From: Ruegeria atlantica
GTDB taxonomy: Bacteria; Pseudomonadota; Alphaproteobacteria; Rhodobacterales; Rhodobacteraceae
DNA length: 64,000 nt
Assembly (NCBI GenBank): GCA_013032095.1
Contig: WQBJ01000002.1
Location: 7,501 to 71,500, forward strand
Reading direction: 5' to 3'
In this document: positions 11,806 to 60,299 of the stretch, piece by piece
Position numbering within the stretch: the stretch's first letter is position 1
Layout of the letters: the number at the start of each line of letters is the position of its first letter
The notes under the pieces: generated by a model
What the model was told of the DNA's origin: nothing
The model's database searches: none
What the model saw: only the letters and a program-made list of their open reading frames with translations
Translations under genes and position numbers: made by a program

Positions 11806-11832
11806 TCATTTCTGGCTCTTAACTTTCACTGA

Positions 11833-11905
11833 GCAGTGAACAGTCTCAACCTTGTGGAAGTCCAGATCGCGATCATCAGTCATCGAGGCGATGCTCAGCA
11901 TCTCA
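11833..11905 (-). pseudogene. remnant of the 3' end of a second BCCT-type transporter gene
   Basis: This stretch matches the last 23 sense codons of the intact transporter gene (12388-12456). By hand count 59 of 69 bases agree, and 18 of 23 amino acids, including the run DRDLDFHKVE. The match stops sharply on the 5' side at about 11905, so nothing else of the gene remains. The stop codon position has changed (CAC TGA in the intact gene, CAC TGC here). It lies on the same strand as the intact gene, with a 77-codon ORF between the two. Confidence 0.8.
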
Positions 11906-12026
11906 CTGTTGTGTCGTCATCAATCCATCCAAGGTTTCAGCAAAGTTAATGTTTGGCTTTGGACGAATGATCCGGTTGGGTACTTCGATACGATGAAGGA
12001 CCAACATTCGGTCGTTTTTTTTGCTT

Positions 12027-12260
12027 TCAATGCAGGCTCAGCAGCACTTCCAGATCTCGACGGCTTAGGCGGGTCATCAAAGACCTCTCATCAGCGGACA
12101 ACCTTGCCCCTTTGCGGATATAATTTGCAAGATACGTGGCGATCTCACTGGTCGGCCGGTAATACAGGTCCGGCGAAGAATGGCTAAGTTCATTCACCAG
12201 CCTAAGCAGAAGTTTCTTCTGTTTCTCCGAGTCCAAATCCTTGCGCTTTTCTTCCAGCAT
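12027..12260 (-). CDS. small hypothetical protein, cargo between BCCT gene and its 3' remnant
   Basis: A 77-residue highly charged, mostly helical protein (starts MLEEKRKDLDSEKQKK) with no family I recognise; no signal peptide or membrane segment is visible. The composition, rich in Lys, Glu and Leu, is that of a real soluble protein. The start could be the ATG at 12260 or a TTG at 12281; AGGAAA lies upstream of the ATG at rather long spacing. It lies between the intact BCCT gene's terminator and the broken BCCT 3' end. Confidence 0.5.
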   Translation of the reverse strand: MLEEKRKDLDSEKQKKLLLRLVNELSHSSPDLYYRPTSEIATYLANYIRKGARLSADERSLMTRLSRRDLEVLLSLH

Positions 12261-12326
12261 GACGTCATTTTTCCTATCCAATTGTGGTAGAAACTAGCGC
12301 AACACTGCTAAAAACCAACTGCAGAC

Positions 12327-12360
12327 AAAACGAAAACGGGCGCCGCTTGCGACGCCCGTT
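12327..12360 (-). terminator. Rho-independent terminator of the BCCT-type gene
   Basis: On the minus strand an 8-bp stem AACGGGCG/CGCCCGTT is followed by a T-rich run (TTTTCGTTTTG), 25 bases after the transporter stop codon. Confidence 0.85.
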
Positions 12361-12384
12361 GCATGGTTTAGACATCCAGTCGGA

Positions 12385-13587
12385 TCAGTGAACTGCTTCA
12401 ACCTTGTGGAAATCCAGATCGCGGTCTTCGGGCATCGAGTCGATGCTCAGCACCTCTTTGCGCTTGGCGATCAGGATATAGACCACGCAAGCCAGGTAGA
12501 GGCCGACGACCACGGCACCGATCCACTGGATCTGCAGCCACTGGCTTTGGAACAGCAGCGTCAGGACAAACAGCAGCGCGACGTTTCCTGCAACGTAGGG
12601 TGCCTTGCCAAAACGCTCGACGGTCATGTTCAGGTTGTCGGTGTACAAACGGATCAGCGAGTCCAGAGAGTTGATCACGAAGGTCACACCCACGATCACC
12701 ATCGCGATGTTGGTGATACCTGCGGTGCTGATGCCGTTCAGGTGGTAGTAGTAGAGAACGGTGAACCAGATCGCCAGCGGGATCGACGGGAAGATCAGCA
12801 GCGCGGCCAGCAACTGCCAGGTGGTCAACCCACCAACAAAGCGCGAGGTAAACTGGCCAATCATGATCGACCATGCGAACCACCAGAACAGGTAGAAGGC
12901 GTGGTAGTCGGTCAGCGGCAGGACAAACTTGTGCAGATTGGCGAAGTAAGCACCGATATTGCTGCCGGTTTCAGCGAAATCGGTCAGGCCCATCCCCGCC
13001 GCGGCCCACATGCCGAAAATCAGCGCCAGGAATAGGAAGGTCGAACCCACCGACAGGACGCGCACATATTTCAGATCGGTCGACGAATAGGCCGCTGCCA
13101 GAATGGCTACAAACACGATGATGTAGAAGGTAGTGACAACGGACTCGCCGTCTCCGATCTCGGGCAGGTAGCCGGGCAGGTAGATCAGGAACAGGCTGGC
13201 GGTGAAGGCGCAGGTGCCGATGATGACCACGTTATTGATCAGTTTGACCAGCGGGATTTCAAAGAATTTCACCCGCGGTTCGATCACACAGAAATAGAAG
13301 GCTGTAAGGAAGTAGAACGCCCAGATCAGGAACCCCCAGAATCCGAACTCAATCGCCAGCGGATTGGCGAAGGCATAGGCCGGGTCTTCGGCGTAGCCGC
13401 CAAACTCGGTCAGCGGGAACATGATCAAACCAACATCCAGACCGGATGTGAACAGGATCGCGATGAACGTAAAAAGGTGGACGGGCGTTACGCCGACACA
13501 GCGCAGGTTCCACCATTTCACAACGAAGAATGCGACCAGGCCCAGGGCCAGCAGGACGCCAAAAGACAGGATGTACTCCAGCAACAC
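12385..13587 (-). CDS. BCCT-like (betaine/choline/carnitine-type) transporter, short form
   Basis: A 400-residue inner-membrane protein with about ten hydrophobic segments. The segment FWWFAWSIMIGQFTSRF near residue 235 resembles the Trp-rich helix that forms the substrate site in BCCT sodium- or proton-coupled carriers. The family is usually 500 residues or more with 12 helices, so this is a short, divergent member; the substrate cannot be named. The start is probably the GTG at 13587, since GGGAGGTG lies 5 bases upstream. The soluble C-tail EDRDLDFHKVEAVH is the part duplicated as a remnant about 0.5 kb downstream. Confidence 0.7.
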   Translation of the reverse strand: MLLEYILSFGVLLALGLVAFFVVKWWNLRCVGVTPVHLFTFIAILFTSGLDVGLIMFPLTEFGGYAEDPAYAFANPLAIEFGFWGFLIWAFYFLTAFYFCVIEPRVKFFEIPLVKLINNVVIIGTCAFTASLFLIYLPGYLPEIGDGESVVTTFYIIVFVAILAAAYSSTDLKYVRVLSVGSTFLFLALIFGMWAAAGMGLTDFAETGSNIGAYFANLHKFVLPLTDYHAFYLFWWFAWSIMIGQFTSRFVGGLTTWQLLAALLIFPSIPLAIWFTVLYYYHLNGISTAGITNIAMVIVGVTFVINSLDSLIRLYTDNLNMTVERFGKAPYVAGNVALLFVLTLLFQSQWLQIQWIGAVVVGLYLACVVYILIAKRKEVLSIDSMPEDRDLDFHKVEAVH

Positions 13588-16278: not shown

Positions 16279-18279
16279 TCCCAACGCCACTCGAGGCCGA
16301 CCACTGGCTTCGACTGTAATCAGCGCCTCAACAAACACTTCCTGTGCCTCGATACGGGCCGTGCGGATATCCCGGTCAACCACAACGCGGATGTCCGCGG
16401 CCCCGGCCTGACGCACAGCCCCTTCCGCCTCGGTCCGCAAAACGGATTCCAAAAGTGCCAGCGCTTTGTCCGATTCATTGAAATCCTGCGGGCCGTTTTC
16501 GAGATGCACACGAAAACGCCCTTCGGACGGAGATGTCACCGTACCCGAACGGCGCAGGGTTAGACGCCCGACCACTGCGCCGATGGCATTGGCCACACCC
16601 GCATGTTCGGGAAGAACCATACGGGCATGCAGCCGTTCTCCGACAGCCGGGTAATAGCTGGGGGCAGACGCTCCCAAGCCAACAACGTCCACATTCAAAG
16701 CCGCATCCAATGCCAGCAATCCGCGATGGCGCGACAGTCCTTTTTGCATCAAAACATGCCGGGCCAAGTCAGCAGGGGAAACACCGAAATCTTCAGCCTC
16801 TTCCGCAAAAGCAGTCTCTAACAAGGTCAAAACTGTTTGTTCTGTCAGCTGATCAACAATGACCTGCGCCAGCTCGTCTGGCCCCGATGCCAATCTGTCC
16901 CCTGTTCCGACCCGTTTGCGCGCCACCAATTCCAGCGCTTTGCGCGCGGCGTCTGCATCCCAGGCGTCCAGCCGGCCCAAAACATGGCTGGCATCCGACG
17001 GCGTCACGCCCGAGACCTGAACGATCCCGCGATCCACCAACCGTGTCAGCGCACCGCTTTCCATTCGCGTGCGTAGCAGGTCGCTCAAAGGCAGAACTTT
17101 ATCACCCAACCTCTCCAGCAGCGCGTCTTCCCGAGCGCCCACCCCCTCAGCGTGAATACCGGGGACACGACGGGCAAACCGAGTATCATGTTCACCAACC
17201 GTCGTGGCCCGCAGTTGAGAATCCAGAACAGCATGCACAGCCTCCGGGGCTTCCGACGCGATCAGGGACACAGGCAAGACCCGACGTGGGCCGAGGAAGA
17301 CGCCGCCACCCAATCCTTCGGTCACCACATGCACCTGACTGTCGCCGCCTAGCCCATGGGTTCGCATCGCGACTGCCTCGACCATGGTGCGAAATCCGCC
17401 GACCTGAGCGCCTGCTGGATCAATGGCGGGTTTGCCATCTCGGATCAGCGCCACGTCCGTGGTGGTCCCACCGATATCCGACACCAGAGCATTTTCAGTC
17501 CCTGTCAGCCAGCTGGCCCCGACAATCGAGGCTGCCGGGCCGCTGAGGATCGTCTCGATCGGTCGTTCCCGCGCCTGTTCCGCGCTCATCAACGCACCAT
17601 CCCCACGGACCACCATCATCGGCGCGGTGATGCCGAGTTCCAGCAATCGGTCCTGCGCGCGCCCGATAAGTCGATCGATCATACCTATCAGCCGTGCGTT
17701 CAGCACCGCAGTCACCGCTCGCTTCGGGCCGTTCAGCTTAGCCGACAAGTGATGCGAACACGTCACCGGTGCGCCAGTCCTGTCGGCAATAATCCGTGCT
17801 GCCTCAAGCTCATGAGCTGGGTTCCGCGTGGCAAACTGGCCTGCCACAGCAAAGCCGGAAATACCCTTATGAGAGTCTAAAAATGCCTCGAGCGTCGCCA
17901 CATCCAACGGTGCGGCTTCGCCTCCGGCATGGGTGTGACCGCCGGAAATCACCAGGGCAGGATCTCCTTTCAGAGCGTCCCGCAACCCATGCCTGTCCAG
18001 ATCACTTTCCTTGAACCCGATATAGACCAGTGCCACACGACCGCCCTGCCCCTCAACCAGTGCATTCGTCGCCAATGTAGTCGACAAAGAGGCCATCGAG
18101 ATCTGATCCGGCGCCACCTGTGCCTGATCCAGAACCGCCTGAATCGCCTTGCCCACGCCAATCGCCAAATCGGCACGCGTGGTCAGGGACTTGGCCGAGG
18201 CGATCACCTCTTTCTCGTCCCGGATCAGCACCGCATCCGTGTATGTTCCACCCGTATCCACCCCCAAAGCCAACGCCAT
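16276..18279 (-). CDS. hydantoinase/oxoprolinase family protein (HyuA-like)
   Basis: A 667-residue protein of the ATP-dependent hydantoinase A / 5-oxoprolinase A family. It opens with the actin-like nucleotide motif GVDTGGTYTDAV (residues ~5-16) and has a second phosphate motif VSDIGGTTTDVALI near residue 267. Members normally pair with a HyuB subunit; none is adjacent here, so it may act alone or with a distant partner. The ATG at 18279 follows AAGGAGAA, and the frame extension to 18351 is rejected. It lies 72 bp after queG on the same strand. Confidence 0.86.
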   Translation of the reverse strand: MALALGVDTGGTYTDAVLIRDEKEVIASAKSLTTRADLAIGVGKAIQAVLDQAQVAPDQISMASLSTTLATNALVEGQGGRVALVYIGFKESDLDRHGLRDALKGDPALVISGGHTHAGGEAAPLDVATLEAFLDSHKGISGFAVAGQFATRNPAHELEAARIIADRTGAPVTCSHHLSAKLNGPKRAVTAVLNARLIGMIDRLIGRAQDRLLELGITAPMMVVRGDGALMSAEQARERPIETILSGPAASIVGASWLTGTENALVSDIGGTTTDVALIRDGKPAIDPAGAQVGGFRTMVEAVAMRTHGLGGDSQVHVVTEGLGGGVFLGPRRVLPVSLIASEAPEAVHAVLDSQLRATTVGEHDTRFARRVPGIHAEGVGAREDALLERLGDKVLPLSDLLRTRMESGALTRLVDRGIVQVSGVTPSDASHVLGRLDAWDADAARKALELVARKRVGTGDRLASGPDELAQVIVDQLTEQTVLTLLETAFAEEAEDFGVSPADLARHVLMQKGLSRHRGLLALDAALNVDVVGLGASAPSYYPAVGERLHARMVLPEHAGVANAIGAVVGRLTLRRSGTVTSPSEGRFRVHLENGPQDFNESDKALALLESVLRTEAEGAVRQAGAADIRVVVDRDIRTARIEAQEVFVEALITVEASGRPRVALG

Positions 18280-57378: not shown

Positions 57379-57972
57379 ATGGCAACACAAGCACGAGCAT
57401 GGCAGCGGATGTTGTCGGGGCGCAGGCTGGACCTGCTGGACCCGACCCCTGTGGACATCGAAATCGAAGATATCGCCCACGGACTGGCCTTTGTGGCCCG
57501 CTGGAACGGCCAAACGGCGGGTGATTTTGCCTATTCCGTGGCCGAGCATTCTCTTCTGGTTGAAGAGCTTTTTGGCCGGATTTCCCCCAAAGCACCGGCA
57601 AAATGGCGGCTCGCGGCTTTGTTACATGATGCGCCGGAATATGTGATCGGAGATATGATCTCGCCGGTAAAATCTGCCGTTGGCCCTGACTACGGGGCGC
57701 TGGACGACCGTCTGGCGGCAGCGATCCATATTAGGTTCGGTCTGCCCGCTGCAGTGCCGAAAACGGTGAAACGACAGATCAAAAAGGCCGACAAGATCAG
57801 TGCCTGGATGGAGGCCACCCAGATCGCTGGCTTTTCCGAGGCCGAGGCGACCAAGTACTTTGGTCGGCCGGATAAAGCGGTAATGGAGGGGTTGGAGATC
57901 GCGTTACGTGCGCCGGTTGAGGTGCGAGAGGCGTATTTGGCCCGGCATGAGGTTTTGATAACTCTTTTATAG
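57379..57972 (+). CDS. HD-domain phosphohydrolase (YfbR-like 5'-nucleotidase)
   Basis: A 197-residue HD-superfamily phosphohydrolase, close to the YfbR 5'-deoxynucleotidase group. Metal ligands are seen in VAEHSLLV (His ~57), ALLHDAPEY (His-Asp ~79-80) and a later KKADKISAW (Asp ~137). The ATG at 57379 follows AAGG; an upstream GTG in the same frame is possible. The last ~47 codons occur a second time, diverged, at 59148-59291, beyond the sulfotransferase-like gene. Confidence 0.87.
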   Translation: MATQARAWQRMLSGRRLDLLDPTPVDIEIEDIAHGLAFVARWNGQTAGDFAYSVAEHSLLVEELFGRISPKAPAKWRLAALLHDAPEYVIGDMISPVKSAVGPDYGALDDRLAAAIHIRFGLPAAVPKTVKRQIKKADKISAWMEATQIAGFSEAEATKYFGRPDKAVMEGLEIALRAPVEVREAYLARHEVLITLL

Positions 57973-58018
57973 AATACCAATTTCATCCAATGACGGCTCT
58001 GAGCCCTTTGCACCCGTT

Positions 58019-58178
58019 TCAACCAATGCGCAGCGGACGAATGGCATTTTCGTGGCAAGTCTGGGCTTCCTTGGGAGTGGAATTCTCGGCGTAGGCAGAT
58101 AGGGCAAACAGGATATTCCCATTTTCATTTTCAAGCGGGAAGATTATATCTCCCAAAAACGCGAACTTCGGAAATACA
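58019..58178 (-). pseudogene. possible 3' remnant of an unknown gene
   Basis: On the minus strand this stretch reads without a stop as protein-like sequence containing GDIIFPLENENGNILFALSAY and ending AIRPLRIG with a TGA. No start codon belongs to it; the frame continues only antisense to the sulfotransferase-like gene. It may be the tail of a gene truncated when the neighbouring DNA came in, or chance. The family is not recognised. Confidence 0.25.
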
Positions 58179-59003
58179 ATGAAATCCTTGCTACGCAGAC
58201 TGCAACCTTTTGCCCGTTTCGGCAAGAAATTCGAATATGAAAACCCGTTAACCAATCGTCCCGAAATCTTCCTGATCTACAGAAAGACCGGAACTGCTTC
58301 GACATTCCTGATGAGTTTGCTTAAGGGCGCTTATGCTACAACGCCGCTAGATTCGGTCAAAACAGACCAAGGCTGTTACAACACAGAGTATCCGAATGTC
58401 GTTGACTATCTGCTCAACATACGCCCAAGCATCCCTATCAATGTAATCGTATTGACACGGGATCCATTTACGCGGCATGTGTCGCAATTCTTTAAGAACC
58501 TTCACAATGACCAAATCAAGTGCCCAATAGATGGGAGCCTTATCGACAACCCGTTTCGAGTCGCAACAAGCAAATACGATTTCACACATTATGCTGAAGT
58601 CTTTACGCGTGCCAATCGGGATTTCTGTTGTCACTTCGACTCCGTAATCGAGGATAGCTTTCCAAGGCTATTTGGGATTAACCCTGAGGAACTCCAAATC
58701 AAAACGCCTAATACAGCGGCGTTTGCTAAGTCAGGGCGCTTTCGGTTGCTCGCGATGCGCAACGAAGACATTCCAAATTGGTCAAAACATATGAAAATTC
58801 ATTTCGGTGTAAACATTGATACTGCTCGATCAACACCCGTGAATGCAGCCAAAGATACAAAAAACGCGAACGCCTACTTTGATTTCCGGCGGCGCTACGA
58901 ATTTAGTAAACAAGATCAGCAGATGATGAAGGAGCTCCAGTCGTATCAAATATACTACTCTGAATCACCCGTGTCGCTACAGTTTCAGAGTGACGCTAGT
59001 TGA
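58179..59003 (+). CDS. AT-rich sulfotransferase-like / capsular polysaccharide synthesis protein
   Basis: A 274-residue protein resembling the putative capsular polysaccharide synthesis / sulfotransferase group. IFLIYRKTGTASTFLMSLLK (~30-49) looks like the 5'-phosphosulfate loop, and NVIVLTRDPFTRHVSQFFKN (~88-107) like the 3'-phosphate-binding segment of PAPS-dependent enzymes. It would decorate surface glycans. GC content and codon use (many AAA, AAT and ATA codons) are clearly unlike its neighbours, suggesting transfer. It is flanked by the HD gene and a diverged copy of that gene's 3' end. Confidence 0.68.
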   Translation: MKSLLRRLQPFARFGKKFEYENPLTNRPEIFLIYRKTGTASTFLMSLLKGAYATTPLDSVKTDQGCYNTEYPNVVDYLLNIRPSIPINVIVLTRDPFTRHVSQFFKNLHNDQIKCPIDGSLIDNPFRVATSKYDFTHYAEVFTRANRDFCCHFDSVIEDSFPRLFGINPEELQIKTPNTAAFAKSGRFRLLAMRNEDIPNWSKHMKIHFGVNIDTARSTPVNAAKDTKNANAYFDFRRRYEFSKQDQQMMKELQSYQIYYSESPVSLQFQSDAS

Positions 59004-59147
59004 TCCGCCATGAGGTAATCGCACATATCTCTAGCCTCAGAGCAACCGCGTGACCTCTCCGAAGCTTACCTTTGCGCTGTTCTTGATTTCACCTGAATAA
59101 ACAAAGCACCCGTCAGCAGTATCTCTTTACTTCATTCTTCCGTTTCG

Positions 59148-59291
59148 GGGTTCTCCGAGGCCGAGGCGACCAAGTTCTTTGGTCGTCCGGATAAGGCGGT
59201 GATGGAGGGGTTGGATATCGTTCTACGACCACCGGTTGAGGTACGGCGGGCGTATATGGATCGACATGCTTTCTTGTTAGAAAAGGCCTAA
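59148..59291 (+). pseudogene. diverged duplicate of the 3' end of the HD-domain gene
   Basis: A 47-codon open stretch beginning GFSEAEATKFFGRPDKA and ending at TAA matches the C-terminus of the HD protein encoded at 57379-57972. By hand count about 104 of 129 bases and 34 of 43 residues agree. The match begins abruptly at 59147-59148, and no start codon or upstream part of the gene is present. The strand is the same as that of the intact gene, 1.2 kb away. Confidence 0.85.
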
Positions 59292-59316
59292 AATCAAAAA
59301 TGAAGCTGAGTCAGCT
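59290..59316 (-). terminator. hairpin terminator after the regA-abutting ORF
   Basis: On the minus strand AGCTG-ACT-CAGCT is followed by a T-rich run (TCATTTTTGATTTT), 13 bases past the stop of the 139-codon ORF. Confidence 0.5.
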
Positions 59317-59328
59317 CGCTGTGAATGT

Positions 59329-59748
59329 TTAGGCACTCATTTCTAGCGTTAAAAACAACTCATCAATTAACTCGTCATCAACGCCTCTTTGTTCCTCGGA
59401 ACAATTGTATGACGCTACAAGCATAGAGTTACCGCTTCTGAAAAACCAAACTCTCCAGAAACTGTGGTCACTTGTATAAGCTGCGCAGATCCCCTTTACG
59501 CTTCCGTTGCTTACTTGATCATGTCCGATTTTCTGCCCCGCAAAATCTTGCAGAAACTCTATCAAATCTTCTTCAGTAACCGGACTATCTTTGTAGTAAA
59601 CGGACAGCGTAATTGACCCTGTTCCATCATTTTTCTCCAAAGAGACGATACGGTCATTTTCATCCGCAACGATGAAAACGTTTCCGAGATCCAACGACCA
59701 GTTATCTAGACTGAGCATTTTGCCACAAGCGCTTTTTGCGAGGATCAC
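59329..59748 (-). CDS. AT-rich orphan protein overlapping the regA stop codon
   Basis: A 139-residue soluble protein without signal peptide or membrane segment; the family is not recognised. It is rich in Asp, Ser and Glu (ENDRIVSLEKNDGTGSITL near residue 35; acidic C-terminus). The frame begins with a GTG at 59748 whose bases overlap the regA TGA (GTGA), allowing translational coupling to regA; an ATG at 59718 has no ribosome-binding site. GC content is far below that of regA, so it looks newly inserted exactly at the regA 3' end. Confidence 0.6.
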   Translation of the reverse strand: MILAKSACGKMLSLDNWSLDLGNVFIVADENDRIVSLEKNDGTGSITLSVYYKDSPVTEEDLIEFLQDFAGQKIGHDQVSNGSVKGICAAYTSDHSFWRVWFFRSGNSMLVASYNCSEEQRGVDDELIDELFLTLEMSA

Positions 59749-60299
59749 CGCGGACTGCGTTTCGCCAAAATCCGCTGCAACGTCCGGCGGTGCATGTTCA
59801 GGCGTCGGGCGGTCTCGGAAACATTCCGGTCACACAGCTCATAGACGCGCTGGATATGCTCCCAGCGTACACGATCCGCGCTCATGGGGTTTTCTGGTGG
59901 CGGGGGCAGCTCGTCGCCCTTGGCCAGCAGCGCGCTGGTGATGTCGGTGGCATCAGCGGGTTTTGACAGGTAATCGGTGGCACCGATTTTGACGGCGGCC
60001 ACGGCGGTGGCAATCGCGCCATATCCGGTCAAAACCACAACCCGGCTGTCGGGGCGTTTCTCGCGCAGAACCTCGACCACATCGAGCCCGTTGCCATCCT
60101 CAAGCCGCAGGTCAACAACGGCATAAGCCGGCGGACGGGCGGTGGAGATGGCGCGGCCTGCGGCGACGGAGCCTGCGGTTTCAACCTCGAACCCGCGTTT
60201 TTCCATGGCCTTGGCCAGACGTCTCAGAAACGGCTCGTCGTCATCCACTAGGAGCAGGGATTTATCGGGGCCGATATCGAGGTCAGAGCTGTCCGCCAT
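59745..60299 (-). CDS. regA: RegA/PrrA/ActR redox response regulator
   Basis: A 184-residue global redox regulator of photosynthesis, respiration, carbon and nitrogen fixation genes in alphaproteobacteria. The receiver domain carries DDDE (~19-22) and phospho-acceptor Asp in VVDLRLED (~63). A proline-rich linker ELPPPPENP is followed by a Fis-type helix-turn-helix ETARRLNMHRRTLQRIL. It is the partner of RegB, encoded 0.8 kb away on the other strand, with senC between. Confidence 0.97.
   Translation of the reverse strand: MADSSDLDIGPDKSLLLVDDDEPFLRRLAKAMEKRGFEVETAGSVAAGRAISTARPPAYAVVDLRLEDGNGLDVVEVLREKRPDSRVVVLTGYGAIATAVAAVKIGATDYLSKPADATDITSALLAKGDELPPPPENPMSADRVRWEHIQRVYELCDRNVSETARRLNMHRRTLQRILAKRSPR

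Follow-up and report, generated by a model that had tools for sequence, protein, structure and literature searches.

Cargo acquisition with displacement of a housekeeping gene's 3′ end at an integrase-free hotspot of Ruegeria

The interval separating an HD-domain (YfbR-like) gene from a response regulator gene that we take to be regA/actR is probably a locus where Ruegeria species exchange cargo genes without integrases, the cargo entering by homologous recombination inside the 3′ tail of the HD gene. In the window, i.e. the whole stretch of 64,000 nucleotides of Ruegeria atlantica analysed here (genome G000), that tail is present twice. Comparison with relatives indicates that the truncated downstream copy, henceforth the remnant, is the native end of the gene, and that the tail of the intact gene and the cargo next to it are the newcomers, inserted near nt 446 of the HD gene (numbers preceded by nt refer to this gene). 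The case is genuine and well resolved: cargo has been acquired, and a 3′ end displaced, at an integrase-free hotspot (Table 1).

Table 1. Features of the HD-regA interval in the window
Feature	Position	Strand	Remarks
HD-domain (YfbR-like) gene body, nt 1-445	57379..57823	+	Native; ORF call, Pfam, identity to G011
3′ tail of the intact HD gene	57824..57972	+	Incoming from somewhere in nt 447-520 onwards; identities and mismatch counts
Cargo ORF, 274 aa, 45% GC	58179..59003	+	'Sulfotransferase-like', family unconfirmed
Right end of the insert, non-coding	59004..59142		regA tail not detected upstream of the remnant, p 0.67
Remnant, the displaced native HD 3′ tail	59143..59292	+	In frame to its own stop; repeat, profile search, comparison with G011
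139-aa ORF, native neighbour of the old tail	59329..59748	-	132-aa homologue follows the intact HD gene in G011
Response regulator flanking the hotspot on its right	59745..60299	-	Order ahcY-HD-gap-regA-sco in the family

The HD gene occupies 57379-57972, and its product matches the Pfam families YfbR-like (E 6e-8) and HD (E 8e-7). A preliminary description of the sequence had remarked that the 3′ end of this gene recurs at 59148-59291 with some 81% identity, beginning abruptly without any 5′ part. This was borne out: a direct repeat of 132 nt at 80% identity links 57829-57960 to 59148-59279, with a spacing of 1,319, while the last 144 nt of the gene are 75% identical to the downstream copy. 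A profile of the HD genes of the genus extends the copy over nt 449-592, almost to the stop codon (E 1.7e-32), and alignment with the relative G011 places the beginning of the homology at 59143, that is, nt 446. All told, about the last 147 nt of the gene recur. Read in the HD frame, the copy is open up to its own stop. Three near direct repeats (at least 60 nt, within 8 kb) are listed for the whole window, and this one exceeds the other two, which lie in 11831-12456 and 17431-18270 and have lengths of 74 nt (85% identity) and 60 nt (72%). The AT-richness noticed between the copies was also confirmed, with 46% GC from the HD stop to the remnant against 58% in the HD body; GC is 43% after the remnant (59293-59744).

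Which of the two copies is the native one? The remnant had been supposed to be the 3′ end of a related species, brought in together with the cargo. The comparison with G011 reverses this view. With the intact tail of G011 the remnant shares 93.1% identity, which is what the gene bodies display (93.0% over nt 1-440), and the intact tail of the window reaches only 74.5%; its best match, 82%, is in G004. Furthermore, the sequence past the remnant, 139-aa ORF included, is the sequence found past the intact HD gene in G011, a genome that has the empty site: it is collinear with the window leftward at 91% and, from nt 446, rightward at 84%, the window having 1,319 bp more. Because tail and body identities, flank match and empty site agree, the remnant is the displaced native end, of which the first 50 nt or so may be derived from the donor.

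The situation recurs with other cargo. Ruegeria sp. A3M17 (G041) differs from G019 by about 1,031 extra bp, the right-hand block starting at nt 454 (the sizes of extra DNA were derived from aligned blocks in these empty/filled pairs). The flank after remnant 1 of G041 is that which follows the intact HD gene of G040 and G019, as in the window/G011 pair, and a third, older case is provided by remnant 2, common to G019, G040 and G041, whose flank resembles at 77% that of the intact gene in G023. An empty site, other cargo lodged between intact gene and remnant, and a 3′ copy that fits the relatives, all of which the preliminary description had proposed to look for, were thus found, and its idea of foreign DNA arriving by recombination at the 3′ end of the gene, rather than of a recent tandem duplication, agrees with the empty site and with the polymorphism of the cargo.

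The HD gene is present in all 54 Ruegeria genomes from which the HD-regA stretch was taken. Both flanks could be recovered in 49: contigs end before regA in three (G004, G028, G047) and other genes follow HD in two (G013, G016). The order ahcY-HD-gap-regA-sco is that of the family, regA being placed downstream of HD in 68 of 80 family loci. Across the 49 genomes the gap varies from 25 to 5,044 bp (median 1,202), and what lies between the two conserved genes is a series of different whole-gene cassettes. The 54 stretches harbour 104 ORFs of at least 60 aa, some of the short ones possibly spurious, that make up 65 clusters, of which 46 are singletons. Pfam recognizes methyltransferases, glycosyltransferases, a GDSL lipase, glyoxalases, LysE, EamA and MFS transporters, a CHAP protein and others; many cluster representatives match no family. 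Of the 65 clusters, 16 hold shorter ORFs only and 49 reach 85 aa or more in some member; the scan covered 48 of the latter, and among these 48 representatives there was no recombinase, transposase or integrase.

Some cargo clusters consist of the genes found beside HD in G013 and G016 and resemble ordinary chromosome. In these two genomes (loci L044 and L047) small, differing cargo follows HD, then NUDIX-ArgJ and, farther away, SecA, with no regA: a rearrangement breakpoint lies on the same 3′ side of HD. Other neighbours deserve mention. Outside Ruegeria, HD is followed by a gene resembling, on inspection by eye, a GNAT acetyltransferase, which mostly overlaps the HD stop (31 of 57 loci examined), and an antisense gene of the glyoxalase family occupies 14 of the 46 Ruegeria gaps examined, overlapping the HD stop in nine.

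As for the cargo of the window, the 274-aa protein presumably contains a sulfotransferase-type motif, and it had been labelled accordingly. Family searches lend no support to this label: there is a single sub-threshold match to NKWYS (E 0.009), none in NCBIfam and none by phmmer in the PDB. The single-sequence structure model was unusable (pLDDT 30), and the protein does not match the sulfotransferase cargo of G015 (E 0.75). A search for a donor through 54 genomes of the genus and 198 of the family returned the window genome only. No integrase was found at the locus of the window, as had been stated from the outset, and this extends to the scanned cargo of the genus.

Remnants of the HD tail lie downstream of an intact gene in five of the 54 genomes: two are stacked in G041, and G000, G019, G037 and G040 have one each. 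Tails of regA are found within the gap in G001, G005, G015 (two of them) and G041, with E values of 1.1e-7 or better, a match in G045 (E 0.023) being taken as chance; altogether eight of the 54 genomes keep a remnant of one flanking gene or the other. The set of 80 family loci has part of the Ruegeria genomes in common with the genus set, and clear remnants appear in it in A3M17 only. By match count, seven other genera gave two HD-tail matches. Where a remnant of one gene exists, the other gene's tail is not always recognizable beside it: an HD tail follows the regA remnant of G005 (p 0.005, the floor of 200 shuffles), is borderline in G001 (p 0.08) and is not detected after the two regA remnants of G015 (p 0.84 and 0.20), and a regA tail is not detected upstream of the remnants of G019 (p 0.51) and G037 (p 0.89).

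Away from its locus, no copy of the HD tail was found at E 0.01 in the 54 genomes. Phages and viral contigs gave no match, and plasmid matches were restricted to five rhizobial replicons at less than 60% identity, which led us to discard the idea that the tail belongs to an episomal pool. These phage, viral-contig and plasmid searches did not reveal any circular or episomal form.

Comparison of pairs of genomes shows that HD tails go with the cargo rather than with the body of the gene. Over 53 genomes, the 70 pairs sharing a cargo have an excess tail identity of +0.045 once body identity is removed, relatedness being corrected in this way only, and none of 5000 permutations did as much. The excess is present in all seven body-identity bins, the upper ones containing few same-cargo pairs; the tail of regA seems to tend the same way, in five of six bins. 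In the same-cargo pair G019/G040, the relative rate falls from 0.32 to 0.02 at about nt 375, indicating a recent joint transfer of tail and cargo from there on.

Where, then, does native sequence give way to foreign sequence? A fixed cut site would have the switch at about nt 450. Instead, in 26 close pairs with different cargo, switch points are scattered from nt 78 to nt 564, ten of them at 510-525. The intact gene of G041 has 4 mismatches in 87 positions with that of G019, then 17 in 54 (p 3.5e-5), and is native to about nt 540; remnant 1 of G041 has 9 in 47 before nt 500, then 9 in 94, a weak contrast (p 0.12). The remnant of the window has 8 mismatches in 47 with G011, then 2 in 94 from nt 501 (p 0.0024), G011 itself being unusual at nt 454-500, and the intact tail has 7 in 47, then 29 in 94. 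The p values of these mosaics are flattering since the cut positions were picked after the alignments had been seen, but the pattern is that expected from homologous crossover within the tail, which we favour. The best single change point between window and G011, at nt 135, is outside the tail; as the first 135 nt are nearly identical, this pair does not place the tail crossover.

Remnant starts behave otherwise. The best placed are at nt 446 (window), 454 (remnant 1 of G041) and 445 (remnant 2 of G019, G040 and G041), a clustering that, for three independent events, has P 0.0008 if starts are uniform in the gene and 0.006 if they are uniform in its last 200 nt. The profile puts the start of the G037 remnant at nt 479, with weak similarity by eye back to about 457; this remnant may not be a separate event, given its similarity to remnant 2 at the right end. 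The recurrence of starts at nt 445-454 could mean that one ancestral joint, held in common, has been spread through recombination, that joints formed at microhomology, or that a specific site is used. We record that third-position diversity in the 54 genomes is at its minimum for the gene (0.18) at nt 406-435 (57784-57813), shortly before the remnant start, and this is of uncertain meaning because Trp and Met codons occur in the segment. A palindrome-like sequence (relatives of TGTCCGCTTTGAGCCCAAAGCGGACA) lies at about +19 to +34 past the HD stop in eight of the 54 genomes, namely G004, G010, G025, G030, G038, G046, G052 and the window (57991-58006, core only), and in G037 it is also present after the remnant; with so few genomes, and the full palindrome missing in the window, it was dismissed as a recombination site.

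The clustering of starts invites the alternative that an element with an attachment site at nt 445-457 or so inserts there and brings a tail to replace the old one, which it displaces, in the manner of prophage e14 in icd, its recombinase acting in trans or having been lost. At the position of the starts, TTTTC is found in 47 of 54 HD genes and 49 of 49 regA genes (GGGTTTTC in 30 of 54 and 46 of 49), and it is at a TTTTC-like stretch common to both genes that, at the end of the G041 insert, a regA tail is joined to the HD tail. Yet the common word is no longer than expected by chance (longest matches of 8-12 nt in 80 shuffles) and is the longest match in only nine of 49 genomes, so that we rejected a special site common to HD and regA; with scattered switch points, a G041 gene native far beyond the site, no recombinase among the scanned cargo and no tail copy elsewhere, site-specific integration is unlikely. 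The G041 joint would also suit homology-facilitated illegitimate recombination of linear DNA, with a homologous crossover in HD on the left and a microhomology joint at the TTTTC-like stretch on the right. The mechanism is known, its joints being mostly of 3-10 bp (PMC3240628), and it has been proposed for similar Vibrio arrays (PMC5361080). It is described as generally yielding a deletion of similar size (PMC3240628), whereas Ruegeria exhibits a duplication, and the mosaic remnants point rather to a crossover within the tail, which makes this route rather improbable. Finally, if the entire HD gene had been duplicated in tandem long ago, with decay of the second copy and gain of genes in between, a second 3′ copy in the same orientation would be explained, but this is scarcely credible and contradicted by the alignments: relatives with empty sites are collinear from nt 446 onward, which rules out a decayed full-length paralogue, the flank of the remnant is that of the intact locus in G011, and the remnant is in frame and identical to G011 at 92 of 94 positions from nt 501. 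The decayed paralogue without cargo polymorphism that the preliminary description had set against its own view did not materialize.

Returning to homologous recombination inside the HD tail, we picture an ancestor resembling G011, with an empty site, its native tail and the old neighbour gene. A piece of the chromosome of another Ruegeria, with that donor's HD 3′ tail and cargo, would have recombined within this tail, joining the native body to the incoming tail and cargo and displacing the old tail, with its neighbour, 1,319 bp downstream. The donor would be a Ruegeria chromosome, the incoming DNA circular or drawn from an already tandem donor locus, the recombination the work of host RecA, and the entry route transformation, a gene transfer agent or conjugation. 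As a fitting precedent, duplications have been reported to arise by a single crossover with a shortened circle (PMC3240628). Several facts sit uneasily with this account: plain homologous recombination does not predict starts at nt 445, 446 and 454, the change point of the window/G011 pair is where the tail is not, no regA tail was detected at the right end of the insert, and no donor of the cargo was found in the genomes searched. A bolder version, in which HD tail, cargo and regA tail make up a portable integrase-free cassette that circularizes at a short word common to HD and regA, docks at the HD or regA ends of other species and stacks like integron cassettes, the gene tails acting as homology arms, strikes us as quite doubtful.

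What makes the case significant is that 3′-end displacement, described for Rhs and T6SS loci, is now met in a housekeeping gene of the ordinary kind, and that related species have preserved both the empty and the filled site. The locus is a natural setting in which to test how single genes enter chromosomes without the help of integrases. It also carries a caution: where a truncated copy of a gene sits next to cargo, this copy can be the native end, not the foreign one. Among the literature matches listed, there were analogues for Rhs, T6SS and Neisseria, and none on the HD-regA locus or on integrase-free tail displacement in a housekeeping gene.

Rhs tips are toxins. In Rhs loci, too, a new 3′ end is placed on a conserved body, the old one surviving as a downstream fragment within an array of low GC, and homologous recombination with circular intermediates has been proposed for this displacement (PMC2935791). 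Ruegeria shares with them the displaced ends arrayed downstream of an intact gene. However, Rhs tips as described there are unlike one another and it is the core that is repeated, while in Ruegeria the repeated part is the tail itself, always the same domain of a housekeeping HD/YfbR-like protein (twelve tails align as one domain, 64-79% identical to the first), and the payload is the next gene. Effector-immunity arrays of the Vibrio cholerae T6SS similarly owe to serial insertions the downstream shift of old genes and 3′ ends, with two proposed modes, homologous replacement and illegitimate insertion (PMC5361080); Ruegeria differs in lacking effector-immunity selection, its cargo being unrelated single genes.

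Prophage e14 likewise supplies icd with an alternative 3′ end and leaves the other end beyond, but it is described as a phage excising at 11-bp direct repeats (PMC4759930), whereas the Ruegeria inserts of 1.0-1.3 kb have no recombinase that we could find, no integrase of their own among the 48 scanned representatives, and crossovers inside the tail: remnant starts cluster as one fixed core would have them, yet switch points and mosaics fall elsewhere. In integrase-less chromosomal hotspots, too, gene turnover between core genes is high and flanks recombine; the model given for them is double crossover in the flanks (PMC5635113), to which tail-displacing insertion would add a mode. In the minimal mobile element (MME) of Neisseria, different whole-gene cassettes lie between two conserved genes and are exchanged by homologous recombination (PMC3898611). 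The HD-regA interval resembles MME and integrase-less hotspots in its varying cassettes and in having no mobility gene in the scanned cargo, and homologous recombination accords with tail-cargo linkage and scattered switch points, if less readily with starts recurring near nt 450. It departs from MME, as described, in that the 3′ ends of flanking genes travel with the cargo and are found displaced in several genomes. The view we favour is that of a hotspot akin to a minimal mobile element, at which the tail of a housekeeping gene is displaced in the manner of Rhs.
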